Assembly: GCA_030386875.1 (NCBI GenBank)
Contig: CM059556.1
Span: forward strand, 38,542,964-38,606,963
Length of the DNA stretch: 64,000 bases
From: Morinoia aosen
Taxonomy: Eukaryota; Arthropoda; Malacostraca; Amphipoda; Talitridae
Direction of reading: 5' to 3'
Shown here: in pieces, positions 853 through 64,000 of the stretch
Position numbering within the stretch: the stretch's first letter is position 1
Layout of the letters: the number at the start of each line of letters is the position of its first letter
The notes under the pieces: generated by a model
Seen by the model: only the letters and a program-made list of their open reading frames with translations
The model's database searches: none
Told to the model about the DNA's origin: nothing
Made by a program: the position numbers and the translations under genes

Positions 853-1431
853 ATTACAATATCGCTGCTGGGCATCAAGCATCAGCCACTGCACTCACCA
901 CAAAACGCGACTTCGTTCACTCACCATTTGATTTGGACGACCGAAGACGAGCAGCGAGGGCCCGTGAACCAAACACGCAACTTCCCAAGGTTCCTGATGC
1001 GCAAGTTGCTGCAAATCAAAGAAGAGCAGGAGTTTGTTGAGCGTTTCCAGCGTGTTCAACGTGGCCCTTTCATCGCACGTGCTGTTCGTGCCAACGACCC
1101 AAGGATGATCCAGGCCCTTGTCGATGGAAAAATAATGCAGCGAGAACTGCGTGACTTGCGTCAAAATGGGAGCCAAAACGCGGCACGGGTATCTGAAGAA
1201 GCGCTTGAAGCTGGAAACGACAGGCTTGTGATTTTTACGAAAGGCGAATTCGAAGACGAGTTTAAGGTATTTTTTAATTCCAGTGACCGTCGTGACGACG
1301 ACAACAAGCGCGAAGAAAATTCCCAAACTTCGGCGTGTCCGACCCTGTCGAAGTGCCTCGGCTACTCGGGCTGTCTCTTCAACTTTGGCAACGAGTTTTG
1401 TCTCGGTGACCCCTTGCCTGGGAAAAGAAAG
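853..1431 (+). CDS. internal coding exon of an unrecognised protein (193 codons)
   Basis: What is seen: a pyrimidine-rich tract ending TTTTTCTCGTAG precedes a frame that stays open for 579 bases (exactly 193 codons) and ends AAAG at a strong donor, GTGAGG. An in-frame stop lies at the acceptor, so the frame opens exactly at the splice site. Codon use is protein-like, with balanced GC-rich third positions. The middle is charged and probably helical (LMRKLLQIKEEQEFVERF, then VQRGPFIARAVRANDP). The end is cysteine-containing (CPTLSKCLGYSGC, then NEFCLGDPLPGKRK). I see no signal peptide or membrane segment and do not recognise the family. The opposite strand is also open over most of this region, but its composition looks less coding-like. 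No partner exon is identifiable nearby. Both ends are phase 0, the same as the exons at 32.5 and 39.8 kb, but a link to them is speculation. An unusually long single exon of a host gene is the best reading; an old transposon coding fragment is the alternative. Confidence 0.55.
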
Positions 1432-31332: not shown

Positions 31333-31408
31333 ATTACTTAATGGGTAGGCAGGAGGGACAGGAGGGATAAATGGATGGGTAGATAAGTAAGCTAATAGTT
31401 TGAAGCGG

Positions 31409-32442
31409 CAGTTGTGCTCAGCTGGCAGTTGTGCTCAGCTGGCAGTTGTGCTCAGCTGGCAGTTGTGCTCAGCTGGCAGTTGTGCTCAGCTGGCAGTTGT
31501 GCTCAGCTGGCAGTTGTGCTCAGCTGGCAGTTGTGCTCAGCTGGCAGTTGTGCTCAGCTGGCAGTTGTGCTCAGCTGGCAGTTGTGCTCAGCTGGCAGTT
31601 GTGCTCAGCTGGCAGTTGTGCTCAGCTGGCAGTTGTGCTCAGCTGGCAGTTGGGCTCAGCTGGCAGTTGGGCTCAGCTGGCAGTTGTGCTCAGCTGGCAG
31701 TTGTGCTCAGCTGGCAGTTGTGCTCAGCTGGCAGTTGTGCTCAGCTGGCAGTTGTGCTCAGCTGGCAGTTGTGCTCAGCTGGCAGTTGTGCGCAGCTGGC
31801 AGTTGTGCTCAGCTGGCAGTTGTGCTCAGCTGGCAGTTGTGCTCAGCTGGCAGTTGTGCTCAGCTGGCAGTTGTGCTCAGCTGGCAGTTGTGCTCAGCTG
31901 GCAGTTGTGCTCAGCTGGCAGTTGTGCGCAGCTGGCAGTTGTGCGCAGCTGGCAGTTGTGCTCAGCTGGCAGTTGTGCTCAGCTGGCAGTTGTGCTCAGC
32001 TGGCAGTTGTGCTCAGCTGGCAGTTGTGCTCAGCTGGCAGTTGTGCTCAGCTGGCAGTTGTGCTCAGCTGGCAGTTGTGCTCAGCTGGCAGTTGTGCTCA
32101 GCTGGCAGTTGTGCTCAGCTGGCAGTTGTGCTCAGCTGGCAGTTGTGCTCAGCTGGCAGTTGTGTTCAGCTGGCAGTTGTGCTCAGCTGGCAGTTGTGCT
32201 CAGCTGGCAGTTGTGTTCAGCTGGCAGTTGTGCTCAGCTGGCAGTTGTGCTCGGCTGGCAGTTGTGCTCGGCTGGCAGTTGTGCTCGGCTGGCAGTTGTG
32301 CTCGGCTGGCAGTTGGGCTCGGCTGGCAGTTGTGCTCGGCTGGCAGTTGTGCTCGGCTGGCAGTTGTGCTCGGCTGGCAGTTGGGCTCGGCTGGCAGTTG
32401 GGCTCGGCTGGCAGTTGGGCTCGGCTGGCAGTTGGGTTCAGC
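31409..32442. repeat. 17-bp minisatellite with directional variant gradient
   Basis: About 61 units of GCAGTTGTGCTCAGCTG. GCTCAGCTG is nearly fixed to 32240. From there on every unit carries GCTCGGCTG, and TTGGGCTC units appear and become the rule at the end. The array stops about 24 bases before the acceptor of the exon at 32466, so it probably occupies the 3' part of an intron. The unit contains CAGCTG, an E-box-like palindrome. Confidence 0.98.
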
Positions 32443-32465: not shown

Positions 32466-32594
32466 CTGCTGGACGTGAACGTGACGTGCGCCAGGAACCA
32501 GCTGGCTGCAGCACCACCAGCTGTGGAGAGCCGCGCTGCAGGCACGGCGCTGCACCGCCTGCCCGCGTCTGAAGTTCTCAGGCGGCAGCAGCAG
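32466..32594 (+). CDS. coding exon E1 of an unrecognised gene (43 codons)
   Basis: A pyrimidine-rich acceptor (TTTCGTATTCCCCAG) and a consensus donor (CAG, then GTGAGT) bound a 129-base segment. It is open in phase 0 from end to end and markedly GC-rich at third positions. The translation begins LLDVNVTCARNQL, runs through an alanine/proline stretch and ends LHRLPASEVLRRQQQ. NVT is a possible glycosylation site if the protein is secreted, but no signal peptide is visible in this exon. On the left is the 17-bp array. On the right the 23-bp satellite begins within five bases of the donor. The exon fits E2 (39795) and E3 (43081) in strand and phase, so I infer one gene with satellite-filled introns. 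The family is not recognised. Confidence that it is an exon is good; its function is unknown. Confidence 0.68.
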
Positions 32595-32598
32595 GTGA

Positions 32599-35500
32599 GT
32601 GGTGGTTTGTGTGCTGTGGTTGTGGTGGTTTGTGTGCTGTGGTTGTGGTGGTTTGTGTGCTGTGATTGTGGTGGTTTGTGTGCTGTGGTTGTGGTGGTTT
32701 GTGTGCTGTGACTGTGGAGGTTTGTGTGCTGTGGTTGTGGTGGTTTGTGTGCTGTGACTGTGGTGGTTTGTGTGCTGTAACTGTGGTGGTTTGTGTGCTG
32801 TAACTGTGGTGGTTTGTGTGCTGTGGTTGTTGTTGTTTGTGTGCTGTGACTGTGGAGGTTTGTGTGCTGTGACTGTGGAGGTTTGTGTGCTGTGGTTGTG
32901 GTGGCTTGTGTGCTGTGACTGTGGTGGTTTGTGTGCTGTGACTGTGGAGGTTTGTGTGCTGTGACTGTGGAGGTTTGTGTGCTGTGACTGTGGTGGTTTG
33001 TGTGCTGTGGTTGTGGTGGTTTGTGTGCTGTGGTTGTGGTGGTTTGTGTGCTGTGGTTGTGGTGGTTTGTGTGCTGTGTTTGTGGTGGTTTGTGTGCTGT
33101 GGTTGTGGTGGTTTGTGTGCTGTGGTTGTGGTGGTTTGTGTGCTGTGGTTGTGGTGGTTTGTGTGCTGTGATTGTGGTGGTTTGTGTGCTGTGATTGTGG
33201 TGGTTTGTGTGCTGTGATAGTGGTGGTTTGTGTGCTGTGATTGTGGTGGTTTGTTTGCTGTGATTGTGGTGGTTTGTGTGCTGTGATCGTGGTGGTTTGT
33301 GTGCTGTGATCGTGGTGGTTTGTGTGCTGTGATTGTGGTGGTTTGTTTGCTGTGATTGTGGTGGTTTGTGTGCTGTGATCGTGGTGGTTTGTGTGCTGTG
33401 ATAGTGGTGGTTTGTGTGCTGTGATTGTGGTGGTTTGTTTGCTGTGATTGTGGTGGTTTGTGTGCTGTGATCGTGGTGGTTTGTGTGCTGTGATCGTGGT
33501 GGTTTGTGTGCTGTGATTGTGGTGGTTTGTGTGCTGTGATTGTGGTGGTTTGTGTGCTGTGGTTGTGGTGGTTTGTGTGCTGTGGTTGTGGTGGTTTGTG
33601 TGCTGTGATTTTGGTGGTTTGTGTGCTGTGATTTTGGTGGTTTGTGTGCTGTGGTTGTGGTGGTTTGTGTGCTGTGACTGTGGTGGTTTGTGTGCTGTGG
33701 TTGTGGTGGTTTGTGTGCTGTGACTGTGGTGGTTTGTGTGCTGTGGTTGTGGTGGTTTGTGTGCTGTGACTGTGGTGGTTTGTGTGCTGTGGTTGTGGTG
33801 GTTTGTGTGTTGTGGTTGTGGTGGTTTGTGTGCTGTGGTTGTGGTGGTTTGTGTGTTGTAGTTGTGGTGGTTTGTGTGTTGTGATTGTGGTGGTTTGTGT
33901 GCTGTGACTGTGGTGGTTTGTGTGCTATGGTTTTGGTGGTTTATGTGCATGGTTTTGGTGGTTTGTGTGCTATGGTTGTGGTGGTTTGTGTGCTGTGATT
34001 GTGGTGGTTTGTGTGCTGTGATTGTGGTGGTTTGTGTGCTGTGACTGTGGTGGTTTGTGTGCTGTGTCTGTGGTGGTTTGTGTGCTGTGACTGTGGTGGT
34101 TTGTGTGCTGTGGTTGTGGTGGTTTGTGTGCTGTGGTTGTGGTGGTTTGTGTGCTGTGGTTGTGGTGGTTTGTGTGCTGTGGTTGTGGTGGTTTGTGTGC
34201 TGTGGTTGTGGTGGTTTGTGTGCTGTGATTGTGGTGGTTTGTGTGCTGTGGTTGTTGTGGTTTGTGTGCTGTGACTGTGGAGGTTTGTTTGCTGTGACTG
34301 TGGTGGTTTATGTGCTGTGGTTGTGATGGTTTGTGTGCTGTGGTTGTGGTGGTTTGTGTGCTGTGGTTGTGGTGGTTTGTGTGCTGTGGTTGTGGTGGTT
34401 TGTGTGCTGTGGTTGTGGTGGTTTGTCTGCTGTGATTGTGGTGGTTTGTGTGCTGTGATTGTGGTGGTTTGTGTGCTGTGATTGTGGTGGTTTGTGTGCT
34501 GTGATTGTGGTGGTTTGTTTGCTGTGATTGTGGTGGTTTGTGTGCTGTGATTGTGGTGGTTTGTGTGCTGTGATCGTAGTGGTTTGTGTGCTGTGATCGT
34601 GGTGGTTTGTGTGCTGTGATTGTGGTGGTTTGTGTGCTGTGACTGTGGTGGTTTGTGTGCTGTGACTGTGGTGGTTTGTGTGCTGTGACTGTGGTGGTTT
34701 GTGTGCTGTGGTTGTGGTGGTTTGTGTGCTGTGATTTTGGTGGTTTGTGTGCTGTGATTTTGGTGGTTTGTGTGCTGTGGTTGTGGTGGTTTGTGTGCTG
34801 TGGTTGTGGTGGTTTGTGTGCTGTGGTTGTGGTGGTTTGTGTGCTGTGGTTGTGGTGGTTTGTGTGTTGTAGTTGTGGTGGTTTGTGTGCTGTGATCGTG
34901 GTGGTTTGTGTGCTGTGATCGTGGTGGTTTGTGTGCTGTGATTGTGGTGGTTTGTGTGCTGTGATTGTGGTGGTTTGTGTGCTGTGATTGTGGTGGTTTG
35001 TGTGCTGTGACTGTGGTGGTTTGTGTGCTGTGACTGTGGTGGTTTGTGTGCTGTGGTTGTGGTGGTTTGTGTGCTGTGATTTTGGTGGTTTGTGTGCTGT
35101 GATTTTGGTGGTTTGTGTGCTGTGATTTTGGTGGTTTGTGTGCTGTGACTGTGGTGGTTTGTGTCCTGTGACTGTGGTGGTTTGTGTGCTGTGGTTGTGG
35201 TGGTTTGTGTGTTGTGGTTGTGGTGGTTTGTGTGCTGTGGTTGTGGTGGTTTGTGTGCTGTGGTTGTGGTGGTTTGTGTGTTGTAGTTGTGGTTGTTTGT
35301 GTGCTGTGATTGTGGTGGTTTGTGTGCTATGGTTTTGGTGGTTTGTGTGCTATGGTTGTGGTGGTTTGTGTGCTGTGATTGTGGTGGTTTGTGTGCTGTG
35401 GTTGTTGTGGTTTGTGTGCTGTGACTGTGGAGGTTTGTGTGCTGTGATTGTGGTGGTTTGTGTGCTGTGATTGTGGTGGTTTGTTTGCTGTGATTGTGGT

Positions 35501-38355
35501 GGTTTGTGTGCTGTGGTTGTGGTGGTTTGTGTGTTGTAGTTGTGGTGGTTTGTGTGTTGTGATTGTGGTGGTTTGTGTGCTGTGACTGTGGTGGTTTGTG
35601 TGTTGTAGTTGTGGTGGTTTGTGTGTTGTGATTGTGGTGGTTTGTGTGCTGTGACTGTGGTGGTTTGTGTGCTATGGTTTTGGTGGTTTATGTGCATGGT
35701 TTTGGTGGTTTGTGTGCTATGGTTGTGGTGGTTTGTGTGCTGTGATTGTGGTGGTTTGTGTGCTGGGATTGTGGTGGTTTGTGTGCTGTGACTGTGGTGG
35801 TTTGTGTGCTGTGTCTGTGGTGGTTTGTGTGCTGTGACTGTGGTGGTTTGTGTGCTGTGGTTGTGGTGGTTTGTGTGCTGTGGTTGTGGTGGTTTGTGTG
35901 CTGTGGTTGTGGTGGTTTGTGTGCTGTGGTTGTGGTGGTTTGTGTGCTGTGGTTGTGGTGGTTTGTGTGCTGTGATTGTGGTGGTTTGTGTGCTGTGGTT
36001 GTTGTGGTTTGTGTGCTGTGACTGTGGAGGTTTGTTTGCTGTGACTGTGGTGGTTTATGTGCTGTGGTTGTGATGGTTTGTGTGCTGTGGTTGTGGTGGT
36101 TTGTGTGCTGTGGTTGTGGTGGTTTGTGTGCTGTGGTTGTGGTGGTTTGTGTGCTGTGGTTGTGGTGGTTTGTCTGCTGTGATTGTGGTGGTTTGTGTGC
36201 TGTGATTGTGGTGGTTTGTGTGCTGTGATTGTGGTGGTTTGTGTGCTGTGATTGTGGTGGTTTGTTTGCTGTGATTGTGGTGGTTTGTGTGCTGTGATTG
36301 TGGTGGTTTGTGTGCTGTGATCGTAGTGGTTTGTGTGCTGTGATCGTGGTGGTTTGTGTGCTGTGATTGTGGTGGTTTGTGTGCTGTGACTGTGGTGGTT
36401 TGTGTGCTGTGACTGTGGTGGTTTGTGTGCTGTGGTTGTGGTGGTTTGTGTGCTGTGATTTTGGTGGTTTGTGTGCTGTGATTTTGGTGGTTTGTGTGCT
36501 GTGGTTGTGGTGGTTTGTGTGCTGTGGTTGTGGTGGTTTGTGTGCTGTGGTTGTGGTGGTTTGTGTGCTGTGGTTGTGGTGGTTTGTGTGTTGTAGTTGT
36601 GGTGGTTTGTGTGCTGTGATCGTGGTGGTTTGTGTGCTGTGATCGTGGTGGTTTGTGTGCTGTGATTGTGGTGGTTTGTGTGCTGTGATTGTGGTGGTTT
36701 GTGTGCTGTGATTGTGGTGGTTTGTGTGCTGTGACTGTGGTGGTTTGTGTGCTGTGACTGTGGTGGTTTGTGTGCTGTGGTTGTGGTGGTTTGTGTGCTG
36801 TGATTTTGGTGGTTTGTGTGCTGTGATTTTGGTGGTTTGTGTGCTGTGATTTTGGTGGTTTGTGTGCTGTGACTGTGGTGGTTTGTGTCCTGTGACTGTG
36901 GTGGTTTGTGTGCTGTGGTTGTGGTGGTTTGTGTGTTGTGGTTGTGGTGGTTTGTGTGCTGTGGTTGTGGTGGTTTGTGTGCTGTGGTTGTGGTGGTTTG
37001 TGTGTTGTAGTTGTGGTTGTTTGTGTGCTGTGATTGTGGTGGTTTGTGTGCTATGGTTTTGGTGGTTTGTGTGCTATGGTTGTGGTGGTTTGTGTGCTGT
37101 GATTGTGGTGGTTTGTGTGCTGTGGTTGTTGTGGTTTGTGTGCTGTGACTGTGGAGGTTTGTGTGCTGTGACTGTGGTGGTTTGTGTGCTGCGCTTGTGG
37201 TGGTTTGTGTGCTGTGCTTGTGGTGGTTTGTGTGCTGTGCTTGTGGTGGTTTGTGTGCTGTGGTTGTGGTGGCTTGTGTGCTGTGGTTGTGGTGGTTTGT
37301 GTGCTGTGGTTGTGGTGGTTTGTGTGCTGTGGTTGTGGTGGTTTGTGTGCTGTGGTTGTGGTGGTTTGTGTGCTGTGGTTGTGGTGGTTTGTGTGCTGTG
37401 GTTTTGGTGGTTTGTGTGCTGTGATTGTGGTGGTTTGTGTGCTGTGATTGTGGTGGTTTGTGTGCGGTGATTGTGGTGGTTTGTGTGCTGTGATTGTGGT
37501 GGTTTGTGTGCTGTGATTGTGGTGGTTTGTGTGCTGTGATTGTGGTGGTTTGCGTGCTGTGACTGTGGTGGTTTGTGTGCTGTGACTGTGGTGGTTTGTG
37601 TGCTGTGACTGTGGTGGTTTGTGTGCTGTGACTGTGGTGGTTTGTGTGCTGTGACTGTGGTGGTTTGTGTGCTGTGACTGTGGTGGTTTGTGTGCTGTGG
37701 TTGTGGTGGTTTGTGTGTTGTGGTTGTGGTGGTTTGTGTGTTGTGGTTGTGGTGGTTTGTGTGTTGTAGTTGATGTGGTTTGTGTGCTGTGACTGTGGTG
37801 GTTTGTGTGCTGTGGTTGTGGTGGCTTGTGTGCTGTGGTTGTGGTGGTTTGTGTGCTGTGGTTGTGGTGGTTTGTCTGCTGTGATTGTGGTGGTTTGTGT
37901 GCTGTGATTGTGGTGGTTTGTGTGCTGTGATTGTGGTGGTTTGTGTGCTGTGATTGTGGTGGTTTGTTTGCTGTGACTGTGGTGGTTTGTGTGCTGTGGT
38001 TGTGGTGGTTTGTGTGCTGTGGTTGTGGTGGTTTGTGTGCTGTGGTTGTGGTGGTTTGTGTGCTGTGGTTGTGGTGGTTTGTGTGCTGTGGTTGTGGTGG
38101 TTTGTGTGCTGTGGTTGTGGGGGTTTGTGTGCTGTGGTTGTGGGGGTTTGTGTGCTGTGGTTGTGGGGGTTCGTGTGCTGGGGTTGTGGGGGTTTGTGTG
38201 CTGTGGTTGTGGTGGCTTGTGTGCTGTGGTTGTGGTGGCTTGTGTGCTGTGGTTGTGGTGGTTTGTGTGCTGTGGTTGTGATGGTTTTTGTGCTGTGATT
38301 GTGGGGGTTTGTGTGCTGTGGTTGTGGTGGTTTGTGTGCTGTGGTTGTGGTGGTT
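32599..38355. repeat. 23-bp GT-rich intronic satellite (about 250 units)
   Basis: The unit contains TGTGCTGTGGTTGTGGTGGT followed by TTG, period 23. Variable positions are GGTTG/GATTG/GACTG/GATCG/GATTTTG and GGTGG/GGAGG. Rare markers (GGTTTATGTGCATGG near 33940 and 35688; TGTGTCCTGTG near 35162 and 36888; TGTGCTGTGTCTG near 34067 and 35814) recur at an offset of 1747 or 1724 bases, a difference of exactly one unit. This defines a 1.7-kb higher-order duplication. The array starts inside the 5' splice-site context of exon E1 and fills most of a 7.2-kb inferred intron. Long cysteine/valine or histidine/threonine frames are artefacts. Confidence 0.98.
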
Positions 38356-38870
38356 CGGATACAATAATCATGACTCAGGTACAATAAGTTTGATCGTTTG
38401 GGTGTAATAATTATAATAGTTTGGTTACAATAATCAGAAGGTTCGGGTACAATGATGGTAATAGTTTGAGTACAATAATTACGACGGTTCGAGTAAAATT
38501 ATTATAGTAGGGCGGGGACAATTTTTATAGTAGGGCGGGTACAATAATTGTGATTGTTGGGGTACAGTAATGATAATGGTTCAGGTATAGTAATTATGAC
38601 AGTGTTCAGTTATTATAATGGTTCGGGAGCAATGGTTGTAAGGTCTGGGTACAATAAATATAATGGTTTGAGTAGAATTATACACGGGTTCGGGTGAAAG
38701 AGTTGAAATGGGTCGAGTGGAATTATCATACAGGTTTGGGTACAATATTATAATACATATAATATAAGGGCTTGTGTATCACCGTTCTAATTGTTTGTTA
38801 ACAATAATTGTGACAATCGTTTGGGCAAAATTTCTATAATGGTTTGGGTACAATAAACTGATTACCATGG
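38356..38870. repeat. degenerate repeat, roughly 23-bp period
   Basis: Imperfect GGTTCGGGTACAATAATTAT units at about 20-25 base spacing directly continue the 23-bp satellite (the junction reads GTGGTGGTTCGGATACAATA). The similar period suggests a decayed or related array at its edge. Confidence 0.7.
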
Positions 38871-38894
38871 TCACAATGGTACACACTTTCTATG

Positions 38895-39140
38895 GGTTTT
38901 CAGCTCCTTATTCCCCTGGGGAAGAAGTGAAGTGCCGGCCCAATGAATGGACTTTCCCCAACAAACACTTTTTCTCGCTTTTTTTGTTTTCTATAATCAG
39001 CAGAGGAGCTGCCTCTCTATGGAAAAAAACTGAGGTTGCGGCGCGAGAATTGAACCTAGGTCTTTAATTTCCAAAATGATTTGCTTTTGTCCTGTTGCCT
39101 TGAGAAAAAAACTAAGCATGCAAGCGTCGTTTAGCTTTTT
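38895..39140 (-). mobile_element. possible tRNA-derived SINE
   Basis: On the minus strand GGTTCAATTCTC (39046-39057) matches a Pol III B box. About 40 bases upstream of it on that strand lies a diverged A-box-like AAGGCAACAGGA. The context GACCTAGGTTCAATTCTCGC resembles the T-arm of a tRNA. No clean tail or target duplication is seen. The call rests on the promoter-like motifs only. Confidence 0.35.
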
Positions 39141-39390
39141 TGCCAACGCTCTATGTTATTAATCTTGTTATATTAGATTAAATGAGACCATTTATCTTGC
39201 TAAATTGAATCAAATGAAGTAATATATGTAGCTTGTTCATATTAGATTGAATAAATTAGTTTATTTTTCATGCTCAAATGAAATTAAGTAAGTTAGTTTA
39301 TTAATCTTAGTCATATTAGATTAAATGAGTTAGTTTATTTATCTGTCTCACATTTGATTAAGTAAATAAGTTTATTTATTTAGCTCACAG
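39140..39390. repeat. degenerate 40-45 bp AT-rich repeat
   Basis: Four to five imperfect copies of CATATTAGATTAAATGAGTT followed by AGTTTATTTATCTTG. Confidence 0.75.
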
Positions 39391-39414
39391 GTTCATGCAT
39401 GCAGCCGCATTTGT

Positions 39415-39730
39415 GTTCATGAATTCCCGAAATTATTGCATCTTTGGGAATTGGCGTTCCCAGGGGGAAAATGTTAGGTCCCAAGCTGAGTGCAATAAGG
39501 TAGGTTTTTTGCGTAGAATGTATCTCCTCTTCTTGTTTCACTCTACTTCTTTCTTTTTTAGTCAATTTTATTTCATTAACTTATTTTTTATTTACTGTTT
39601 CTCTGTGCTAGGAAAATTTCCACAAGGACTCACTTTGTGCACAGATTCCCTATTCCCTATTCCAAATTTACCTTCCTCCTCCCTCTTTTGAGAACACCGT
39701 TCTGGTTGAGGAGGCAATAAAATTAACCCA
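39415..39730. repeat. dispersed repeat of unknown class, copy C
   Basis: Shares TTGGGAATTGGCGTTCCCAG, AAAATGTTAGGTCCCAAGC and GGACTCACTTTGTGCACAGA with copies A and B (26930 and 29450). It ends near GAGGCAATAAAATTAACC, similar to the GAAATAAATTAAT end of copy B. It lies in the inferred intron upstream of exon E2. Confidence 0.5.
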
Positions 39731-39794
39731 GGTTGACTAATTTTACTCAATATTACCCCCCAGATGGTAATATCACTTACCATTTACCCCCCAG

Positions 39795-39887
39795 ATGGTT
39801 CACTTGCAATATTCCTCACACGCTGACGCCGGCATCCCTGACTACGCCAGCACCAACGTCAGCTCCCTTGAGACCGCGCTGACTGAG
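39795..39887 (+). CDS. coding exon E2 of an unrecognised gene (31 codons)
   Basis: A pyrimidine tract and CCCCCCAG acceptor lead into 93 bases open in phase 0, ending ACTGAG at a GTGGGT donor. The translation starts MVHLQYSSHAD and continues AGIPDYASTNVSSLETALTE. The ATG at the exon start is probably internal, since it is directly preceded by the acceptor. NVS is a possible glycosylation site. A near-duplicate of the acceptor and first codon (ACCCCCCAGATGGT) lies 31 bases upstream; using it would shift the frame. The donor itself merges into the first unit of the 16/18-bp satellite. Phases join cleanly to E1 and E3. Family unknown. Confidence 0.68.
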
Positions 39888-41975
39888 GTGGGTGTGTAGA
39901 GTGGGGCGTGTGTAGAGTGGGGCGTGTGTAGAGTGGGGCGTGTGTAGAGTGGGGCGTGTGTGTAGAGTGGGGCGTGTGTGTAGAGTGGGGCGTGTGTGTA
40001 GAGTGGGGCGTGTGTGTAGAGTGGGGCGTGTGTGTAGAGTGGGGCGTGTGTAGAGTGGGGCGTGTGTAGAGTGGGGCGTATGTGTAGAGTGGGGCGTGTG
40101 TGTAGAGTGGGGCGTGTGTGTAGAGTGGGGCGTGTGTAGAGTGGGGCGTGTGTGTAGAGTGGGGCGTGTGTGTAGAGTGGGGCGTGTGTGTAGAGTGAGG
40201 CGTGTGTGTAGAGTGAGGCGTGTGTGTAGAGTGGGGCGTGTGTGTAGAGTGGGGCGTGTGTGTAGAGTGGGGCGTGTGTAGAGTGGGGCGTGTGTGTAGA
40301 GTGGGGCGTGTGTGTAGAGTGGGGCGTGTGTGTAGAGTGGGGCGTGTGTGTAGAGTGGGGCGTGTGTGTAGAGTGGGGCGTGTGTATAGTGGGGCGTGTG
40401 TAGAGTGGGGCGTGTGTGTAGAGTGGGGCGTGTGTGTAGAGTGGGGCGTGTGTGTAGAGTGGGGCGTGTGTGTAGAGTGGGGCGTGTGTGTAGAGTGGGG
40501 CGTGTGTGTAGAGTGGGGCGTGTGTGTAGAGTGGGGCGTGTGTGTAGAGTGGGGCGTGTGTAGAGTGAGGCGTGTGTGTAGAGTGAGGCGTGTGTGTAGA
40601 GTGGGGCGTGTGTTTAGAGTGGGGCGTGTGTTTAGAGTGGGGCGTGTGTGTAGAGTGGGGCGTGTGTGTAGAGTGGGGCGTGTGTAGAGTGGGGCGTGTG
40701 TAGAGTGGGGCGTGTGTAGAGTGGGGCGTGTGTAGAGTGGGGCGTGTGTGTAGAGTGGGGCGTGTGTGTAGAGTGGGGCGTGTGTGTAGAGTGGGGCGTG
40801 TGTAGAGTGAGGCGTGTGTGTAGAGTGGGGCGTGTGTGTAGAGTGGGGCGTGTGTGTAGAGTGGGGCGTGTGTGTAGAGTGGGGCGTGTGTGTAGAGTGG
40901 GGCGTGTGTGTAGAGTGGGGCGTGTGTGTAGAGTGGGGCGTGTGTGTAGAGTGGGGCGTGTGTGTAGAGTGGGGCGTGTGTGTAGAGTGGGGCGTGTGTA
41001 GAGTGGGGTGCGTGTGTAGAGTGGGGCGTGTGTGTAGAGTGGGGCGCGTGTGTAGAGTGGGGCGTGTGTGTAGAGTGGGGCGTGTGTGTAGAGTGGGGCG
41101 TGTGTGTAGAGTGGGGCGTGTGTGTAGAGTGGGGCGTGTGTGTAGAGTGGGGCGTGTGTGTAGAGTGGGGCGTGTGTGTAGAGTGGGGCGTGTGTGTAGA
41201 GTGGGGCGTGTGTGTAGAGTGGGGCGTGTGTGTAGAGTGGGGCGTGTGTGTAGAGTGGGGCGTGTGTGTAGAGTGGGGCGTGTGTGTAGAGTGGGGCGTG
41301 TGTGTAGAGTGGGGCGTGTGTGTAGAGTGGGGCGTGTGTGTAGAGTGGGGCGTGTGTGTAGAGTGGGGCGTGTGTGTAGAGTGGGGCGTGTGTGTAGAGT
41401 GGGGCGTGTGTGTAGAGTGGGGCGTGTGTGTAGAGTGGGGCGTGTGTGTAGAGTGGGGCGTGTGTGTAGAGTGGGGCGTGTGTGTAGAGTGGGGCGTGTG
41501 TGTAGAGTGGGGCGTGTGTGTAGAGTGGGGCGTGTGTGTAGAGTGGGGCGTGTGTGTAGAGTGGGGCGTGTGTGTAGAGTGGGGCGTGTGTGTAGAGTGG
41601 GGCGTGTGTGTAGAGTGGGGCGTGTGTGTAGAGTGAGTGGGGCGTGTGTGTAGAGTGAGTGGGGCGTGTGTGTAGAGTGAGTGGGGCGTGTGTGTAGAGT
41701 GAGTGGGGCGTGTGTGTAGAGTGAGTGGGGCGTGTGTGTAGAGTGAGTGGGGCGTGTGTGTAGAGTGAGTGGGGCGTGTGTGTAGAGTGAGTGGGGCGTG
41801 TGTGTAGAGTGAGTGGGGCGTGTGTGTAGAGTGAGTGGGGCGTGTGTGTAGAGTGAGTGGGGCGTGTGTGTAGAGTGAGTGGGGCGTGTGTGTAGAGTGA
41901 GTGGGGCGTGTGTGGAGAGTGAGTGGGGCGTGTGTGGAGAGTGAGTGGGGCGTGTGTGGAGAGTGAGTGGGGCAT
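39888..41975. repeat. GT-rich intronic satellite with 16-, 18- and 22-bp units
   Basis: Three unit lengths are spatially ordered. GTGTGTAGAGTGGGGC (16) mixed with GTGTGTGTAGAGTGGGGC (18) lies at the left, pure 18-bp units from about 40810 to 41630, and then 22-bp units with an extra GAGT (GTGTGTAGAGTGAGTGGGGC plus GT) to the end. The last few units have GGAGAG for GTAGAG. The first unit includes the donor of exon E2 (GTGGGTGTGTAGAG). Confidence 0.98.
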
Positions 41976-42007
41976 GTGAGAGATATCGAGAGAATTTTAT
42001 TAAATAT

Positions 42008-42965
42008 TCAAATTCTGAGAAACATGTAAATTCTGAGAAACATGTAAATTCTGAGAAACATGTAAATTCTGAGAAACATGTAAATTCTGAGAAATATGTA
42101 AATTCTGAGAAATATGTAAATTCTGAGAAATATGTAAATTCTGAGAAATATGTAAATTCTGAGAAATATGTAAATTCTGAGAAATATGTAAATTCTGAGA
42201 AATATGTAAATTCTGAGAAGTATGTAAATTCTGAGAAGTATGTAAATTCTGAGAAGTATGTAAATTCTGAGAAATATGTAAATTCTGAGAAATATGTAAA
42301 TTCTGAGAAATATGTAAATTCTGAGAAATATGTAAATTCTGAGAAATATGTAAATTCTGAGAAATATGTAAATTCTGAGAAATATGTAAATTCTGAGAAA
42401 TATGTAAATTCTGAGAAATATGTAAATTCTGAGAAATATGTAAATTCTGAGAAATATGTAAATTCTGAGAAATATGTAAATTCTGAGAAATATGTAAATT
42501 CTGAGAAATATGTAAATTCTGAGAAATATGTAAATTCTGAGAAATATGTAAATTCTGAGAAATATGTAAATTCTGAGAAATATGTAAATTCTGAGAAATA
42601 TGTAAATTCTGAGATATATGTAAATTCTGAGAAATATGTAAATTCTGAGAAATATGTAAATTCTGAGAAATATGTAAATTCTGAGAAATATGTAAATTCT
42701 GAGAAATATGTAAATTCTGAGAAATATGTAAATTCTGAGAAATATGTAAATTCTGAGAAATATGTAAATTCTGAGAAATATGTAAATTCTGAGAAAGATG
42801 TAAATTCTGAGAAAGATGTAAATTCTGAGAAAGATGTAAATTCTGAGAAAGATGTAAATTCTGAGAAAGATGTAAATTCTGAGAAATATGTAAATTCTGA
42901 GAAATATGTAAATTCTGAGAAATATGTAAATTCTGAGAAATATGTAAATTCTGAGAAGTATGTGG
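42008..42965. repeat. 18-bp minisatellite (AAATTCTGAGAAATATGT)n
   Basis: About 53 units in perfect phase. Variants cluster: GAAACATGT in the first units, GAAGTATGT in a short run near 42220, GAAAGATGT in five consecutive units near 42790-42880. Clustering indicates local block amplification. Decayed units (TCTGCGAATTCTGAGG) continue to the acceptor of E3. An in-frame SEKYVN hexapeptide frame is an artefact. Confidence 0.98.
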
Positions 42966-43080
42966 ATTCTGAAAGGAAAAATTGCGAGCATGAAAAGTTA
43001 TGAGCTCGAAATGTCTGGGAAATCTGCGAATTCTGAGGGTGAGAATGGTGGCCCCCTACCCCTCCCCCCCCCCCCCGCAG

Positions 43081-43187
43081 GTGGAGGCAGGCAGCTGCGA
43101 CCCCACAGCTGGCTACGCCGGCCTCTGCAGCGCAGCACCACCTCAGCGCCGCCATGTCGTCGACGCCACCTGGCACCTCGTCGCAAG
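43081..43187 (+). CDS. coding exon E3 of an unrecognised gene (35 codons + 2 nt)
   Basis: A very strong polypyrimidine tract (14-15 C) and CCGCAG acceptor precede 107 bases open in phase 0. They end CGCAAG at a GTGAGG donor, leaving two bases of a split codon. The translation reads VEAGSCDPTAGYAGLCS, then AAPPQ and RRHVVDATWHLVA. Third positions are strongly GC-biased, unlike the flanking arrays. The 14-bp array begins nine bases inside the downstream intron. The minus strand also has an open frame here, but the splice signals are all on the plus strand. Joined after E2 it continues an unbroken frame. I do not recognise the protein; the two cysteines and the N-glycosylation motifs in E1/E2 allow, but do not show, a secreted product. 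Confidence 0.68.
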
Positions 43188-43195
43188 GTGAGGCT

Positions 43196-44155
43196 GTTGT
43201 TTACGACCTCGTGTTTACGACCTCGTGTTTACGACCTCGTGTTTACGACCTCGTGTTTACGACCTCGTGTTTACGACCTCGTGTTTACGACCTCGTGTTT
43301 ACGACCTCGTGTTTACGACCTCGTGTTTACGACCTCGTGTTTACGACTTCGTGTTTACGACTTCATGTTTACGACTTCGTGTTTACGACTTCGTGTTTAC
43401 GACTTCGTGTTTACGACCTCGTGTTTACGACCTCGTGTTTACGACCTCGTGTTTACGACCTCGTGTTTACGACTTCGTGTTTACGACTTCGTGTTTACGA
43501 CTTCGTGTTTACGACCTCGTGTTTACGACTTCGTGTTTACGACTTCGTGTTTACGACCTCGTGTTTACGACCTCGTGTTTACGACCTCGTGTTTACGACC
43601 TCGTGTTTACGACCTCGTGTTTACGACTTCGTGTTTACGACTTCGTGTTTACGACCTCGTGTTTACGACCTCGTGTTTACGTCTTCGTGTTTACGACCGC
43701 GTGTTTACGACCGCGTGTTTACGACCGCGTGTTTACGACCGCGTGTTTACGACCGCGTGTTTACGACCGCGTGTTTACGACCGCGTGTTTACGACCGCGT
43801 GTTTACGACCTCGTGTTTACGACCTCGTGTTTACGGCTTCGTGTTTACGACCACGTGTTTACGACCGCGTGTTTACGACCGCGTGTTTACGACCGCGTGT
43901 TTACGACCGCGTGTTTACGACCGCGTGTTTACGACCGCGTGTTTACGACCGCGTGTTTACGACCGCGTGTTTACGACCGCGTGTTTACGACCGCGTGTTT
44001 ACGACCGCGTGTTTACGACCGCGTGTTTACGACCGCGTGTTTACGACCGCGTGTTTACGACCGCGTGTTTACGACCGCGTGTTTACGACCGCGTGTTTAC
44101 GACCGCGTGTTTACGACCGCGTGTTTACGACCGCGTGTTTACGACCGCGTGTTTG
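43196..44155. repeat. 14-bp minisatellite (GTGTTTACGACCTC)n
   Basis: About 68 units. GACCTC and GACTTC types mix in the left half and GACCGC dominates from about 43690. One short reversal to CCTC/CTTC lies at about 43810-43850. The array starts immediately after the donor of E3. Confidence 0.98.
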
Positions 44156-45555: not shown

Positions 45556-46467
45556 TAGTGGTCCTTAACTCCTGGGTCGCGACCCAAAGTTGGGTTGCCA
45601 AGCCATTACATTGGGTCGTTAAATGTTTGTGTTACCTGTTTGTGTTAACCTACAGTAACCTGTTTGTGTTAACCTACAGTAACCTGTTTGTGTTAACCTA
45701 CAGTAACCTGCTTGTGTTAACCTACAGTAACCTGTTTGTGTTAACCTACAGTAACCTGTTTGTGTTAACCTACAGTAACCTGTTTGTGTTAACCTACAGT
45801 AACCTGCTTGTGTTAACCTACAGTAACCTGCTTGTGTTAACCTACAGTAACCTGTTTGTGTTAACCTACAGTAACCTGCTTGTGTTAACCTACAGTAACC
45901 TGCTTGTGTTAACCTACAGTAACCTGCTTGTGTTAACCTACAGTAACCTGTTTGTGTTAACCTACAGTAACCTGCTTTTGTTAACCTACAGTAACCTGTT
46001 TGTGTTAACCTATAGTAACCTGCTTGTGTTAACCTACAGTAACCTGTTTGTGTTAACCTACAGTAACCTGCTTGTGTTAACCTACAGTAACCTGTTTGTG
46101 TTAACCTACAGTAACCAGTTTGTGTTAACCTACAGTAACCAGTTTGTGTTAACCTACAGTAACCAGTTTGTGTTAACCTACAGTAACCAGTTTGTGTTAA
46201 CCTACAGTAACCAGTTTGTGTTAACCTACAGTAACCAGTTTGTGTTAACCTACAGTAACCAGTTTGTGTTAACCTACAGTAACCAGTTTGTGTTACCTAC
46301 AGTAACCTGTTTGTGTTAACCTACAGTAACCTGTTTGTGTTAACCTACAATAACCTGCTTGTGTTAACCTAGAAGTAACCTGTTTTCGAAAAACTAGTCA
46401 TTTTATGAATAAAATTTTTTATTTTGGGCAGGTTTTGGGTCACAGCCAAAAAGGTTAAGAACCACTG
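45556..46467. mobile_element. hAT-type MITE enlarged by an internal minisatellite
   Basis: The left end TAGTGGTCCTTAACTCCTGG and right end AGGTTAAGAACCACTG are the common hAT CAGTGGTTCTTAACC inverted repeat with few changes. Flanking octamers AATTAGAC (45548-45555) and AGTTAGAC (46468-46475) match at 7 of 8. Subterminal GGGTCGCGACCCAAAG and TTTTGGGTCACAGCC are also typical. About 750 of 912 bases are a 24-bp minisatellite, so the original MITE was only about 150-200 bases. No coding capacity. Confidence 0.92.
45640..46385. repeat. 24-bp minisatellite inside the MITE, about 31 units
   Basis: The unit contains CTGTTTGTGTTAACCTACAG followed by TAAC. TGTTT, TGCTT and AGTTT types lie in blocks, with AGTTT restricted to about nine consecutive units near 46110-46290. 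The left edge begins in MITE sequence (GTTTGTGTTACCTGTTTGTG), which shows the unit arose from the element itself. Confidence 0.97.
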
Positions 46468-47105: not shown

Positions 47106-47605
47106 NNNNNNNNNNNNNNNNNNNNNNNNNNNNNNNNNNNNNNNNNNNNNNNNNNNNNNNNNNNNNNNNNNNNNNNNNNNNNNNNNNNNNNNNNNNNNNN
47201 NNNNNNNNNNNNNNNNNNNNNNNNNNNNNNNNNNNNNNNNNNNNNNNNNNNNNNNNNNNNNNNNNNNNNNNNNNNNNNNNNNNNNNNNNNNNNNNNNNNN
47301 NNNNNNNNNNNNNNNNNNNNNNNNNNNNNNNNNNNNNNNNNNNNNNNNNNNNNNNNNNNNNNNNNNNNNNNNNNNNNNNNNNNNNNNNNNNNNNNNNNNN
47401 NNNNNNNNNNNNNNNNNNNNNNNNNNNNNNNNNNNNNNNNNNNNNNNNNNNNNNNNNNNNNNNNNNNNNNNNNNNNNNNNNNNNNNNNNNNNNNNNNNNN
47501 NNNNNNNNNNNNNNNNNNNNNNNNNNNNNNNNNNNNNNNNNNNNNNNNNNNNNNNNNNNNNNNNNNNNNNNNNNNNNNNNNNNNNNNNNNNNNNNNNNNN
47601 NNNNN
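47106..47605. other. assembly gap (500 N)
   Basis: Exactly 500 N, likely a placeholder of arbitrary size. It begins inside a G-rich tandem array, the probable reason for the break. Confidence 0.99.
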
Positions 47606-50939: not shown

Positions 50940-51234
50940 ACCTAGATGATATATATGAAACAAATATACAGAATATCAAGATATAGAAAACGACGAAACG
51001 GAGAAAAACACGTTAGGTTAAACGATAAATAGATACTAAATAAATTTATATAGCAAACCGATAAAAATTGTCCATATAGCAAACGACGATATAGAAACAA
51101 AATGATATAGAAATTGACCACACACAGAAACAAAATAATGTAGAAAACGACAATGAAAAGCAATCGACTAAACAGAAAATCAAAATGTAGAAAAAAATGA
51201 ATACAAATCGACGATATATAAAATGACAATGAAT
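50940..51234. repeat. degenerate left edge of the 15-bp megasatellite
   Basis: Diverged words (GATATAGAAAACGACGAAAC, CATATAGCAAACGACGATAT, ATGTAGAAAACGACAATG) at irregular spacing lead into the regular array. Confidence 0.85.
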
Positions 51235-53460
51235 AGAAAACGTCGATATAGAAAACGACGATGTAGAAAACGACGATATAGAAAATCAAAATGATATAGA
51301 AAACGACGATGTAGAAAACGACGATATAGAAAATCAAAATGATATAGAAAACGACGATGTAGAAAACGACGATATAGAAAATCAAAATGATATAGAAAAC
51401 GACGATGTAGAAAACGACGATATAGAAAATCAAAATGATATACAAAACGACGATGTAGAAAACGACGAAATAGGAAACGACGATGTAGAAAATCAAAATG
51501 ATATAGAAAACGACGATGTAGAAAACGACGATATAGAACATCAAAATGATATAGAAAACGACGATATAGAAAATCAAAATGATATAGAAAACGACGATAT
51601 AGAAAATCAAAATGATATAGCAAACGACGATATAGAAAATCAAAATGATATAGAAAACGACGATATAGAAAATCAAAATGATATAGAAAACGACGATATA
51701 GAAAATCAAAATGACATAGAAAACGACGATATAGAAAATCAAAATGATATAGAAAACGACGATATAGAAAATCAAAATGATATAGAAAACGACGATATAG
51801 AAAATCAAAATGATTTAGAAAACGACGCTATAGAAAATCAAAATGATTTAGAAAACGACGCTATAGAAAATCAAAATGATATAGAAAACGACGCTATAGA
51901 AAATCAAAATGATATAGAAAACGACGCTATAGAAAATCAAAATGATATAGAAAACGACGCTATAGAAAATCAAAATGATATAGAAAACGACGCTACAGAA
52001 AATCAAAATGATATAGAAAACGACGCTATAGAAAATCAAAATGATATAGAAAACGACGCTATAGAAAATCAAAATGATATAGAAAACGACGCTATAGAAA
52101 ATCAAAATGATATAGAAAACGACGCTATAGAAAATCAAAATGATATAGAAAATCAAAATGATATAGAAAACGACGATATAGAAAATCAAAATGGTATAGA
52201 AAATCAAAATGATATAGAAAACGACGATATAGAAAATCAAAATAATATAGAAAACGACGATATAGAAAATCAAAATGATATAGAAAACGACGATATAGAA
52301 AATCAAAATGATATAGAAAATCAAAATGATATAGAAAATCAAAATGATATAGAAAACGACGCTATAGAAAATCAAAATGATATAGAAAATCAAAATGATA
52401 TAGAAAACGACGCTATAGAAAATCAAAATGATATAGAAAATCAAAATGATATAGAAAACGACGCTATAGAAAATCAAAATGATATAGAAAACGACGCTAT
52501 AGAAAATCAAAATGATATAGAAAACGACGCTATAGAAAATCAAAATGATATAGAAAACGACGCTATAGAAAATCAAAATGATATAGAAAACGACGCTATA
52601 GAGATTCAAAATGATATAGAAAACGACGATAGAGAAAATCAAAATGATATAGAAAACGACGCTATAGAAAATCAAAATGATATAGAAAACGACGCTATAG
52701 AAAATCAAAATGATGTAGAAAACGACGATATAGAAAATCAAAATGATGTAGAAAACGACGATATAGAAAATCAAAATGATATAGAAAACGACGCTATAGA
52801 AAATCAAAATGATATAGAAAACGACGCTATAGAAAATCAAAATGCTATAGAAAACGACGCTATAGAAAATCAAAATGATATAGAAAACGACGATAGAGAA
52901 AATCAAAATGATATAGAAAACGACGATAGAGAAAATCAAAATGATATAGAAAACGACGATAGAGAAAATCAAAATGATATAGAAAACGACGATAGAGAAA
53001 ATCAAAATGATATAGAAAACGACGATAGAGAAAATCAAAATGATATAGAAAACGACGATAGAGAAAATCAAAATGATATAGAAAATCAAAATGATATAGA
53101 AAACGACGCTATAGAAAATCAAAATGATATAGAAAACGACGCTATAGAAAATCAAAATGATATAGAAAACGACGCTATAGAAAATCAAAATGATATAGAA
53201 AACGACGCTATAGAAAATCAAAATGATATAGAAAACGACGCTATAGAAAATCAAAATGATATAGAAAACGACGCTATAGAAAATCAAAATGATATAGAAA
53301 ACGACGCTATAGAAAATCAAAATGATATAGAAAACGACGATATAGAAAATCAAAATGATATAGAAAACGACGATATAGAAAATCAAAATGATATAGAAAA
53401 CAACGATATAGAAAATCAAAATGATATAGAAAACGACGATATAGAAAACGACGATATAGA
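51235..53460. repeat. 33-bp dimeric zone of the megasatellite (15 + 18 bp)
   Basis: The 15-bp GATATAGAAAACGAC and the 18-bp GATATAGAAAATCAAAAT mostly alternate, giving period 33. Sub-blocks carry GCTATAG, GATAGAG or GATGTAG variants in runs, and some 18-bp units are doubled. From about 53400 the 18-bp unit becomes rare. Confidence 0.96.
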
Positions 53461-56400
53461 AAACGACGACATAGAAAATCAAAATGATATAGACGATATA
53501 GAAAACGACGATATAAAAAACGACGATATAGAAAACGACGATATAGAAAACGACGATATAGAAAACGACGACATAGAAAATCAAAATGATATAGACGATA
53601 TAGAAAACGACGATATAAAAAACGACGATATAGAAAACGACGATATAGAAAACGACGTTATAGAAAACGACGATATAGAAAACGACGATATAGAAAATCA
53701 AAATGATATAGGAAACGACGATATAGAGAATCAAAATGATATAGAAAACGACGATATAAAAAACGACGATATAGAAAACGATATAGAAAATCAAAATGAT
53801 ATAGAAAACGACGATCCAAAAAACGACGATACAGCAAACGACGATACAGCAAACGACGATACAGCAAACGACGATACAGCAAACGACGATACAGCAAACG
53901 ACGACACAGCAAACGACGATACAGCAAACGACGATATAGAAAACGACGATATAGAAAACGACGATATAGAAAACGACGATATAGAAAACGACGATATAGA
54001 AAACGACGATACAGCAAACGACGATATAGAAAACGACGATACAGCAAACGACGATACAGCAAACGACGATACAGAAAACGACGATATAGAAAACGACGAT
54101 ATAGAAAACGACGATATAGAAAACGACGATACAGCAAACGACGATACAGCAAACGACGATACAGCAAACGACGATATAGAAAACGACGATATAGAAAACG
54201 ACGATATAGAAAACGACGATACAGCAAACGACGATACAGAAAACGACGATACAGCAAACGACGATATAGAAAACGACGATATAGAAAATGACGATACAGC
54301 AAACGACGATACAGAAAACGACGATATAGAAAACGACGATACAGCAAACGACGATACAGCAAACGACGATACAGCAAACGACGATATAGAAAACGACGAT
54401 ATAGAAAACGACGATACAGCAAACGACGATACAGAAAACGACGATACAGCAAACGACGATACAGAAAACGACGATACAGCAAACGACGATATAGAAAACG
54501 ACGATATAGAAAACGACGATATAGAAAACGACGATACAGCAAACGACGATACAGAAAACGACGATATAGAAAACGACGATACAGCAAACGACGATACAGC
54601 AAACGACGATACAGCAAACGACGATACAGCAAACGACGATATAGAAAACGACGATACAGAAAACGACGATACAGAAAACGACGATATAGAAAACGACGAT
54701 ACAGCAAACGACGATACAGCAAACGACGATATAGAAAACGACGATATAGAAAACGACGATATAGAAAACGACGATACAGCAAACGACGATACAGCAAACG
54801 ACGATACAGCAAACGACGATACAGCAAACGACGATATAGAAAACGACGATATAGAAAACGACGATATAGAAAACGACGATATAGAAAACGACGATATAGA
54901 AAACGACGATATGGAAAACGACGATATAGAAAATGACGATATAGAAAACGACGATATAGAAAACGACGATATAGAAAACGACGATATAGAAAACGACGAT
55001 ATAGAAAACGACGATATAGAAAACGACGATATAGAAAACGACGATATAGAAAACGACGATATAGAAAACGACGATATAGAAAACGACGATATAGAAAACG
55101 ACGATATAGAAAACGACGATATAGAAAACGACGATATAGAAAACGACGATATAGAAAACGACGATACAGCAAACGACGATATAGAAAACGACGATATAGA
55201 AAACGACGATATAGAAAACGACGATACAGCAAACGACGATACAGCAAACGACGATATAGAAAACGACGATATAGAAAACGACGATATAGACAACGACGAT
55301 ATAGAAAACGACGATATAGAAAACGACGATATAGAAAACGACGATACAGCAAACGACGATATAGAAAACGACGATATAGAAAACGACGATATAGAAAACG
55401 ACGATACAGCAAACGACGATACAGCAAACGACGATATAGAAAACGACGATACAGCAAACGACGATATAGAAAACGACGATATAGAAAACGACGATACAGC
55501 AAACGACGATATAGAAAACGACGATATAGAAAACGACGATATAGAAAACGACGATATAGAAAACGACGATATAGAAAACGACGATATAGAAAACGACGAT
55601 ACAGCAAACGACGATATAGAAAACGACGATATAGAAAACGACGATATAGAAAACGACGATATAGAAAACGACGATATAGAAAACGACGATATAGAAAACG
55701 ACGATATAGAAAACGACGATATAGAAAACGACGATACAGCAAACGACGATATAGAAAACGACGATATAGAAAACGACGATATAGAAAACGACGATATAGA
55801 AAACGACGATATAGAAAACGACGATACAGCAAACGACGATATAGAAAACGACGATATAGAAAACGACGATATAGAAAACGACGATACAGCAAACGACGAT
55901 ATAGAAAACGACGATATAGAAAACGACGATATAGATAACGACGATATAGAAAACGACGATATAGAAAACGACGATATAGAAAACGACGATATAGAAAACG
56001 ACGATATAGAAAACGACGATATAGAAAACGACGATACAGCAAACGACGACACAGCAAACGACGATATAGAAAACGACGATACAGCAAACGAAGATATAGA
56101 AAACGACGATATAGAAAACGACGATACAGCAAACGACGATATAGAAAACGACGATATAGAAAACGACGATATAGAAAACGACGATATAGAAAACGACGAT
56201 ACAGCAAACGACGACACAGCAAACGACGATATAGAAAACGACGATACAGCAAACGACGATATAGAAAACGACGATATAGAAAACGACGATATAGAAAACG
56301 ACGATACAGCAAACGACGATATAGAAAACGACGATATAGAAAACGACGATATAGAAAACGACGATATAGAAAACGACGATATAGAAAACGACGATATAGA

Positions 56401-62400: not shown

Positions 62401-64000
62401 GATATAGAAAACGACGATATAGAAAACGACGATATAGAAAACGACGATACAGCAAACGACGATATTGAAAACGACGATATAGAAAACGACGATATAGAAA
62501 ACGACGATACAGCAAACGACGACACAGCAAACGACGATATAGAAAACGACGATACAGCAAACGACGATATAGAAAACGACGATATAGAAAACGACGATAT
62601 AGAAAACGACGATACAGCAAACGACGATACAGCAAACGACGATATAGAAAACGACGATATAGAAAACGACGATATAGAAAACGACGATATAGAAAACGAC
62701 GATACAGCAAACGACGATATAGAAAACGACGATATAGAAAACGACGATATAGAAAACGACGATATAGAAAACGACGATATAGAAAACGACGATACAGCAA
62801 ACGACGATACAGCAAACGACGATACAGCAAACGACGATACAGCAAACGACGATACAGCAAACGACGATACAGCAAACGACGATACAGCAAACGACGATAC
62901 AGCAAACGACGATACAGCAAACGACGATATAGAAAACGACGATATAGAAAACGACGATATAGAAAACGACGATATTGAAAACGACGATATAGAAAACGAC
63001 GATACAGCAAACGACGACACAGCAAACGACGATATAGAAAACGACGATATAGAAAACGACGATATAGAAAACGACGATATAGAAAACGACGATATAGAAA
63101 ACGACGATATAGAAAACGACGATATAGAAAACGACGATATAGAAAACGACGATATAGAAAACGACGATACAGCAAACGACGATATAGAAAACGACGATAT
63201 AGAAAACGACGATATAGAAAACGACGATATAGAAAACGACGATACAGCAAACGACGATATAGAAAACGACGATATAGAAAACGACGATATAGAAAACGAC
63301 GATATAGAAAACGACGATACAGCAAACGACGATGTAGAAAACGACGATATAGAAAACGACGATATAGAAAACGACGATATAGAAAACGACGATACAGCAA
63401 ACGACGATATAGAAAACGACGATATAGAAAACGACGATACAGCAAACGACGATATAGAAAACGACGATATAGAAAACGACGATATAGAAAACGACGATAT
63501 AGAAAACGACGATATAGAAAACGACGATATAGAAAACGACGATATAGAAAACGACGATATAGAAAACGACGATATAGAAAACGACGATATAGAAAACGAC
63601 GATATAGAAAACGACGATATGGAAAACGACGATATAGAAAACGACGATATAGAAAACGACGATATGGAAAACGACGATATGGAAAACGACGATATAGAAA
63701 ACGACGATATAGAAAACGACGATATAGAAAACGACGATATAGAAAACGACGATATAGAAAACGACGATATGGAAAACGACGATATGGAAAACGACGATAT
63801 AGAAAACGACGATATGGAAAACGACGATATAGAAAACGACGATATAGAAAACGACGATATAGAAAACGACGATATGGAAAACGACGATATAGAAAACGAC
63901 GATATAGAAAACGACGATATGGAAAACGACGATATGGAAAACGACGATATGGAAAACGACGATATAGAAAACGACGATATAGAAAACGACGATATAGAAA
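53461..64000. repeat. 15-bp megasatellite, continues past window end
   Basis: About 700 units of GATATAGAAAACGAC with three main types: the standard unit, GATACAGCAAACGAC (clusters at 53.8-57.2 and 60.6-63.5 kb) and GATATAGAAAAGGAC (58.1-60.5 kb). A GATATGGAAAACGAC type occurs in blocks at 57.4-57.9 and 63.6-64.0 kb. Orders of types around a rare GATATAGACAACGAC unit match between about 55.15-55.5 and 60.55-60.95 kb, so large segments are duplicated. Single-base losses near 57078, 57960, 58050 and 59070 shift the phase. Frames of up to 3865 codons on the minus strand and 725 on the plus strand are by-products of the unit. Confidence 0.98.

Follow-up and report, generated by a model that had tools for sequence, protein, structure and literature searches.

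In a 64,000-nucleotide stretch of the genome of the amphipod Morinoia aosen (contig CM059556.1, positions 38,542,964 to 38,606,963; hereafter the window), three short putative coding exons, E1 to E3, are each followed by a long minisatellite array that begins 5 to 11 bases behind the 5' splice site (donor). A pattern like that of E1 to E3 recurs in some other genes of this genome: among the protein-kinase genes surveyed, array starts pile up behind donors, array ends leave a gap before acceptors, and donor-side arrays are biased toward G+T on the sense strand. The explanation favoured here, held tentatively and at something close to an even chance, is that arrays expand in introns until they reach the minimal signals for splicing, and that GT-rich seeding or tolerance is added at intron starts.

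All features of the locus lie on the forward (+) strand, and array coordinates are those of Tandem Repeats Finder (TRF). E1 (32466..32594; phase 0-0, 43 codons) ends at the donor CAG|GTGAGT (...CAGCAG|GTGAGT), behind which a 23-bp minisatellite starts at intron position +5 (32599..38355; about 250 copies; sense-strand G+T 0.92). Directly 3' of this young array lies an old, degenerate 23-bp array with 64% matches (38378..38678); within 38356-38860 the old repeat shares the period of the young one and differs from it in sequence. E2 (39795..39887; phase 0-0, 31 codons) ends at GAG|GTGGGT (...ACTGAG|GTGGGT) and is followed, again from +5, by a 16/18-bp minisatellite (39892..41965; about 114 copies; G+T 0.82). 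Most of the remainder of intron 2 is occupied by an 18-bp A+T-rich minisatellite (42002..42972), which ends 108 bases upstream of E3. E3 itself (43081..43187; phase 0-2) ends at AAG|GTGAGG (...CGCAAG|GTGAGG), with a 14-bp minisatellite from +11 (43198..44154; about 68 copies; G+T 0.59). E1 is sandwiched between arrays, because a 17-bp minisatellite upstream of it (31407..32442, or to 32434 under other TRF settings) stops 23 bases short of the exon. By these coordinates, arrays make up about 86% of intron 1 (7,200 nt) and about 95% of intron 2 (3,193 nt). The units are arranged head to tail and are of ordinary minisatellite type (~10-60 bp); on the sense strand, two of the three donor-side arrays have a strong G skew, and the divergence of units along the arrays showed no consistent polarity.

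E1 to E3 are probably protein-coding. As an earlier reading of this stretch (the original prediction) had stated, their acceptors, donors and phases (0-0, 0-0, 0-2) are mutually compatible, and this was confirmed from the sequence. Splice sites here and throughout were called with a generic weight matrix and not with cDNA; on this scale, which was not fitted to the species, the donors of E1, E2 and E3 score 12.2, 8.7 and 10.9 bits and the acceptors 7.8, 7.7 and 9.7 bits. Codon scores in frame 0 exceed those of shuffled sequences (z 3.3 for E1, 2.4 for E2 and 1.8 for E3), and frame 0 ranks best of the six frames for E1 and E2 and third for E3. The open frames themselves are weak evidence, as 39-58% of shuffles are also open. 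When exons were sought without regard to arrays (by acceptor, donor and open frame), the 264 kb that include the window returned 131 candidates with 86 distinct donors; three of these donors lie at most 12 bp from an array, against 0.5 expected, and they are those of E1 to E3. Together, the codon signal and this recovery support a coding status, even with E3, E1 and E2 ranked 4th, 5th and 17th by splice score among the window's 18 candidates. The protein search proposed with the original prediction brought no homologue of the three exons in Pfam or PDB sequences; a Pfam match of E3 to DUF4074 (E 0.14) fell below the cut-off and was set aside. No paralogue was found in the animal's own genome, and Rfam at gathering thresholds and a tRNA search gave no match.

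The arrangement is unlikely to be due to chance, although the pattern was chosen post hoc. The 264-kb region contains 79 TRF arrays (score at least 150), which cover 39% of it. Among random non-array points there (n = 1,926, with 1,074 of 3,000 excluded as lying deep within arrays), an array start is found 1-15 bp away in 0.99% and 1-60 bp away in 2.9%; with the former figure, three array starts out of three would correspond to a probability of ~1e-6. Likewise, of the 37 donor-like sites (at least 8 bits) on both strands of the window's 19.7 kb of non-array DNA, exactly three sit at most 12 bp before an array, and these are the donors of E1 to E3. With the donor motif alone (at least 8 bits, 264 kb) the excess is weak, with three sites toward an array and two away from one (1.08 expected for each). 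Thus, the claims of the original prediction that each donor is met by an array and that this goes beyond chance hold as regards the TRF starts and the random points; for E3 the distance was given as 9 bases after the donor, where TRF puts the start at +11, and the case is softened by the post hoc choice and the weak motif excess.

Other genes were surveyed in the window's own genome (1.99 Gb, 29 contigs), in samples of 80 of 135 protein-kinase matches and, on the donor side only, 40 of 79 ion-channel matches (loci bear L numbers). Exons were picked by hand for an open frame, with near-identical duplicates avoided; the last 20 kinase exons include 19 of the 25 matches with internal stops, and the flanks surveyed were short, extending 250-600 bp downstream. 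Nine of the 80 kinase exons had no donor with an adjusted score of at least 4, leaving 71 donors; one of the nine is L060, whose best donor has an array at +84 and which is therefore missing from the list. Five had no acceptor of at least 3, leaving 75 and thereby removing L031, whose array spans the acceptor-side boundary. Six of the 40 ion-channel ends lacked a called donor and were excluded, leaving 34.

Arrays cross four of the 71 kinase donors, and a further 13 begin in the intron in view, with no array in view at the other 54. The 13 starts fall mainly near the donor: two at 1-15 bp, three at 16-30, three at 31-60, two at 61-100, two at 101-200, one at 201-300 and none at 301-420. Bin by bin, the densities are 1.9, 2.8, 1.4, 0.7, 0.28, 0.14 and 0 starts per kb. 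Within 1-60 bp, 8 of 71 donors have an array start against 2.1 expected (p 0.001); within 101-420 bp, three starts stand against 8.3 expected. When kinase and ion-channel donors are pooled, 9 of the 13 starts within 240 bp fall in the first 60 (p 0.001). The expectation, raised with the original prediction, that array starts lie closer to donors than chance would place them is thus borne out for kinases in the 60-bp interval; it is not supported for ion channels taken alone or for the tightest kinase bin (1-15 bp; 2/71 against 0.7 expected, p 0.16). Upstream of the 75 kinase acceptors, arrays end at 18, 20, 27, 32 and 122 bp, so that four of five halt 18-32 bp short of the exon and none ends at 1-15 bp. 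L094 and L106, both kinase exons, have an array on either side, like E1. Between -100 and 60, arrays occur at 12 of 71 donors and 4 of 75 acceptors (p 0.033).

Donor-side arrays also share a composition. The 18 examined outside E1 to E3 (14 kinase, 4 ion-channel) have a mean sense-strand G+T of 0.66, with 14 of them above 0.5, and none of 20,000 draws with random orientation reached this mean. The four kinase acceptor-side arrays have values of 0.15, 0.46, 0.58 and 0.21 (p 0.0076 against the donor side). The test was devised after the arrays had been seen and its samples are small; it takes the donor of L113 as read by eye (position 71; 110 by automatic call) and omits L114 and L139. As for competing splice sites, no acceptor in the four intron arrays behind E1 to E3 reaches 6 bits, and the strongest decoy donor in the E1 to E3 arrays reaches at most 6.7 bits, against 8.7-12.2 for the true donors.

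Tandem duplication across splice boundaries occurs in this genome. By alignment or by eye, arrays with the exon end and the donor inside the unit were found at three kinase loci (L074, L079 and L094) and four ion-channel loci (L108, L113, L114 and L130). L074 has a 62-bp unit of this kind, L079 a 31-bp unit repeated 13 times across the boundary, and L094 (G000:C17:41801599-41802808) some 15 copies, running into the intron, of a 42-bp unit that includes the last 17-18 nt of the kinase exon; the array of L114 has only 1.9 copies. At L130 (G000:C20:23503446-23503766, - strand), an ion-channel exon ending RVLRTLKTVSIMP, which we take to be sodium-channel-like, is followed by a 28-bp array of 9.3 copies, and most of the units printed carry CCAG|GTGGGT, a row of decoys that starts immediately after the first donor. 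In L094, most decoys read ATG|GTGAGA; their score of 8.6 compares with 10.1 at the first donor. A related case is L062 (G000:C22:48761878-48762737), where ~70 nt of the exon end are duplicated in the intron at 92% identity; the copy contains a stop codon, and from intron +6 there is a GGT-rich repeat.

Copies of exon ends were sought in the exons' own flanks with hidden Markov model (HMM) matches. Such copies occur in 8 of 160 kinase flanks, which belong to eight different exons out of the 80; mismatched flanks gave one in 800 and antisense flanks none in 160. The match at L106 extends beyond the donor. At ion-channel ends the counts are 5 of 40 (L139, one of the five, has no called donor) against 0 of 1,560 mismatched. 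This result looked decisive against mismatched flanks and fell to background against other controls, and it was rejected as evidence that donors are a hot spot. At random points of the 264 kb, 135 of 1,500 (9%) have copies of their own sequence, which predicts 6.4 of the 71 kinase donors (8 seen) and 3.6 of the 40 ion-channel ends (5 seen), and in the same introns copies are found at 13 of 69 points at +245 and 8 of 69 donors. At acceptors the count is 1 of 75. The 264-kb reference is rich in arrays, and the random-point control is therefore severe. At E1 to E3, the sequence spanning each donor shows no similarity to the array unit (p 0.63-0.73), no exon-end copy lies within 240 bp, and the exon side has no counterpart in the array units. 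The idea of GT-rich, donor-proximal arrays in the original prediction is thus supported in its composition (mean G+T 0.66, n = 18), and nucleation from donor sequence at E1 to E3 is not; exon edges are no hot spot of tandem duplication, and the second option then offered, that arrays are tolerated and kept at donors, fits better.

On the favoured account, E1 to E3 would belong to a gene with long introns, in a genome that is crowded with minisatellites. Arrays would arise and expand throughout introns, and their growth would be tolerated up to the point at which splicing signals are damaged. On the donor side, edges would accumulate just beyond the U1 site, here at +5 to +11, and on the acceptor side just before the pyrimidine tract, about 18 to 32 bp upstream of the exon; the pile-up at both exon edges would arise because a barrier halts arrays running toward the exon wherever further growth would take a base that splicing needs. 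The G+T-rich sense-strand bias may reflect seeding from GT-rich intron starts, or else selection against acceptor-like units, as G+T-rich units make no acceptor. We infer that selection sets the array edges and that E1 to E3 are expressed. A rough crowding estimate is in keeping with this account: 0.13 starts per kb (3 over 71 x 320 bp), a mean array length of 0.88 kb (largest array omitted) and 71 donors predict ~8 donors meeting an array, and 8 are seen in 1-60 bp.

Several observations weigh against this account. The crowding estimate is built on three events and combines two TRF cut-offs. Being blind to composition, crowding predicts no GT bias beyond that of ordinary intron starts, and the donor-side arrays exceed the 54 array-free kinase intron starts (0.66 vs 0.57, p 0.0014), which points to some donor-linked cause. 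The seven arrays that cross donors (L074, L079, L094, L108, L113, L114 and L130) mean that the barrier is leaky, and decoys as strong as the first donor in L074, L079 and L094 (in L130 by eye) mean that decoy avoidance is not universal. The pile-up is not replicated in the ion-channel set, where one of 34 donors has an array start in 1-60 bp (L143, +34; two of 34 if the L113 donor is read by eye) against ~1 expected. The starts at +5, +5 and +11 in a single gene are tighter than in kinases (2/71 in 1-15 bp), and three of three at +5 to +11 is exceptional. The array upstream of E1, on its acceptor side, has a G+T of 0.66, contrary to the donor-acceptor contrast in composition. Finally, a further candidate exon of the window, E0 (853..1431, + strand; 193 codons, phase 0-0), is a counter-example: its donor lies 106 bp from the next array despite a better codon signal (z 4.3) than those of E1 to E3.

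A rival explanation is that arrays nucleate at donors. Tandem duplication would then favour the exon-intron boundary, through slippage at GT-rich sequence or R-loops on a G-rich coding strand, and the exon part of boundary-spanning arrays would later decay to leave arrays from +5. The seven boundary-spanning arrays are real, and the own-flank exon copies (8/160 vs 1/800; 5/40 vs 0/1560), the excess of arrays at donors over acceptors and the GT bias all agree with this scenario. We nevertheless consider it rather unlikely: exon ends do not exceed random points or +245 points in their frequency of own copies, the acceptor-side boundary array of L031 was left out of the acceptor count by its low acceptor score, and nucleation is unsupported at E1 to E3 because their units carry no exon or donor sequence. 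A stronger version, in which donors are the true seeding site and a splicing- or transcription-linked process keeps making GT-rich arrays from the first intron bases, we regard as unlikely. If it held, some arrays would be strings of decoy 5' splice sites, and the spliceosome would routinely pick the first of at least ten near-identical donors.

Selection might instead act for the arrays, with donor-adjacent GT-rich repeats serving as intronic splicing enhancers or as timing elements for long introns. The GT bias at donors, absent from the four kinase acceptor-side arrays, and the sense-strand G skew of two E1 to E3 arrays would suit such a function, which is nonetheless very improbable given that 54 of 71 kinase donors have no array in view and that the unit sequence varies from exon to exon. 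It is also decidedly unlikely that E1 to E3 are not exons, being either dead ones or GC-rich gaps that chance has left between satellites. Consistent with that view are the lack of Pfam or PDB relatives and of a paralogue in the genome, the weak codon signal of E3 and the low splice rank of E2; against it stand the array-blind recovery with matching phases, the frame-0 codon signal in E1 and E2, and kinase exons of the same architecture.

Further features lie around the locus. Upstream exon candidates at -68985 to -57779 (window coordinates, + strand) appear by eye to encode C2H2 zinc fingers, and over 800 bp separate their candidate donors from the array that follows. A pattern drawn from E0 matched six stretches of viral contigs, none of which was confirmed, and the array unit pattern gave one stray match in each of five viral contigs. 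Downstream of E3, a 24-bp array (45634-46385) sits inside a sequence that, judged by eye, resembles a short inverted-repeat element (GTGGTCCTTAAC ... GGTTAAGAACCAC; window 45558-46466), and a 500-N assembly gap (window 47106-47605) immediately follows a TGGGGGCAAGAC array. A single 15-bp satellite of ~34 kb fills the window from 51201 to 64000 and continues past its right end to ~85152.

Judging from the portions of the literature consulted, the closest known system is the lancelet 'mirage', described in amphioxus genes for Adh3, globin, troponin C and PGBD5 as minisatellite-like arrays at exon-intron boundaries, with units of 10-160 bp and splicing said to be undisturbed (PMC3087553, PMC3902484). 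E1 to E3 resemble mirages in having a tandem array at the boundary and lack their defining feature: a mirage duplicates the boundary together with exon bases, whereas the arrays here start inside the intron and contain no exon sequence. Exon bases in the unit are matched in this genome at the seven boundary-spanning loci. One of these papers also cites the idea of intron gain by tandem duplication of an AGGT segment, in which both intron ends derive from one duplicated coding segment (PMC3087553). The gigantic Y-linked introns of Drosophila kl-3 and kl-5 likewise contain long satellite DNA to be transcribed and spliced out; those introns are megabase-sized, and the opening of the abstract does not mention donor-abutting arrays (PMC6508621). 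Penaeid shrimp share long intronic tandem repeats in a very repeat-rich animal genome, although theirs are simple sequence repeats with short units, described in the part consulted with no mention of donor distance (PMC7878876). In Caenorhabditis elegans, the intronic minisatellite CeRep25B is tied to splicing by its position near alternative splicing, and is one dispersed family with regulatory motifs, whereas each array examined here has its own unit (PMC4039745). A search of titles and abstract openings in the open-licence PMC literature with fixed terms found no report of donor-abutting arrays as a genome-wide habit.

Boundary-spanning minisatellites have thus been reported from lancelets, as far as these sources go, and the present genome adds cases. 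In a genome of this kind, gene-prediction programs will probably get exon ends wrong. With close donor copies behind their exons, L094 and L130 would permit a direct test of first-donor choice. In several genes, repeats begin a few bases past the donor or end ~20-30 bp before the acceptor, providing a natural experiment on the minimal intron sequence required for splicing; repeats in this genome seem to be tolerated up to that minimum.

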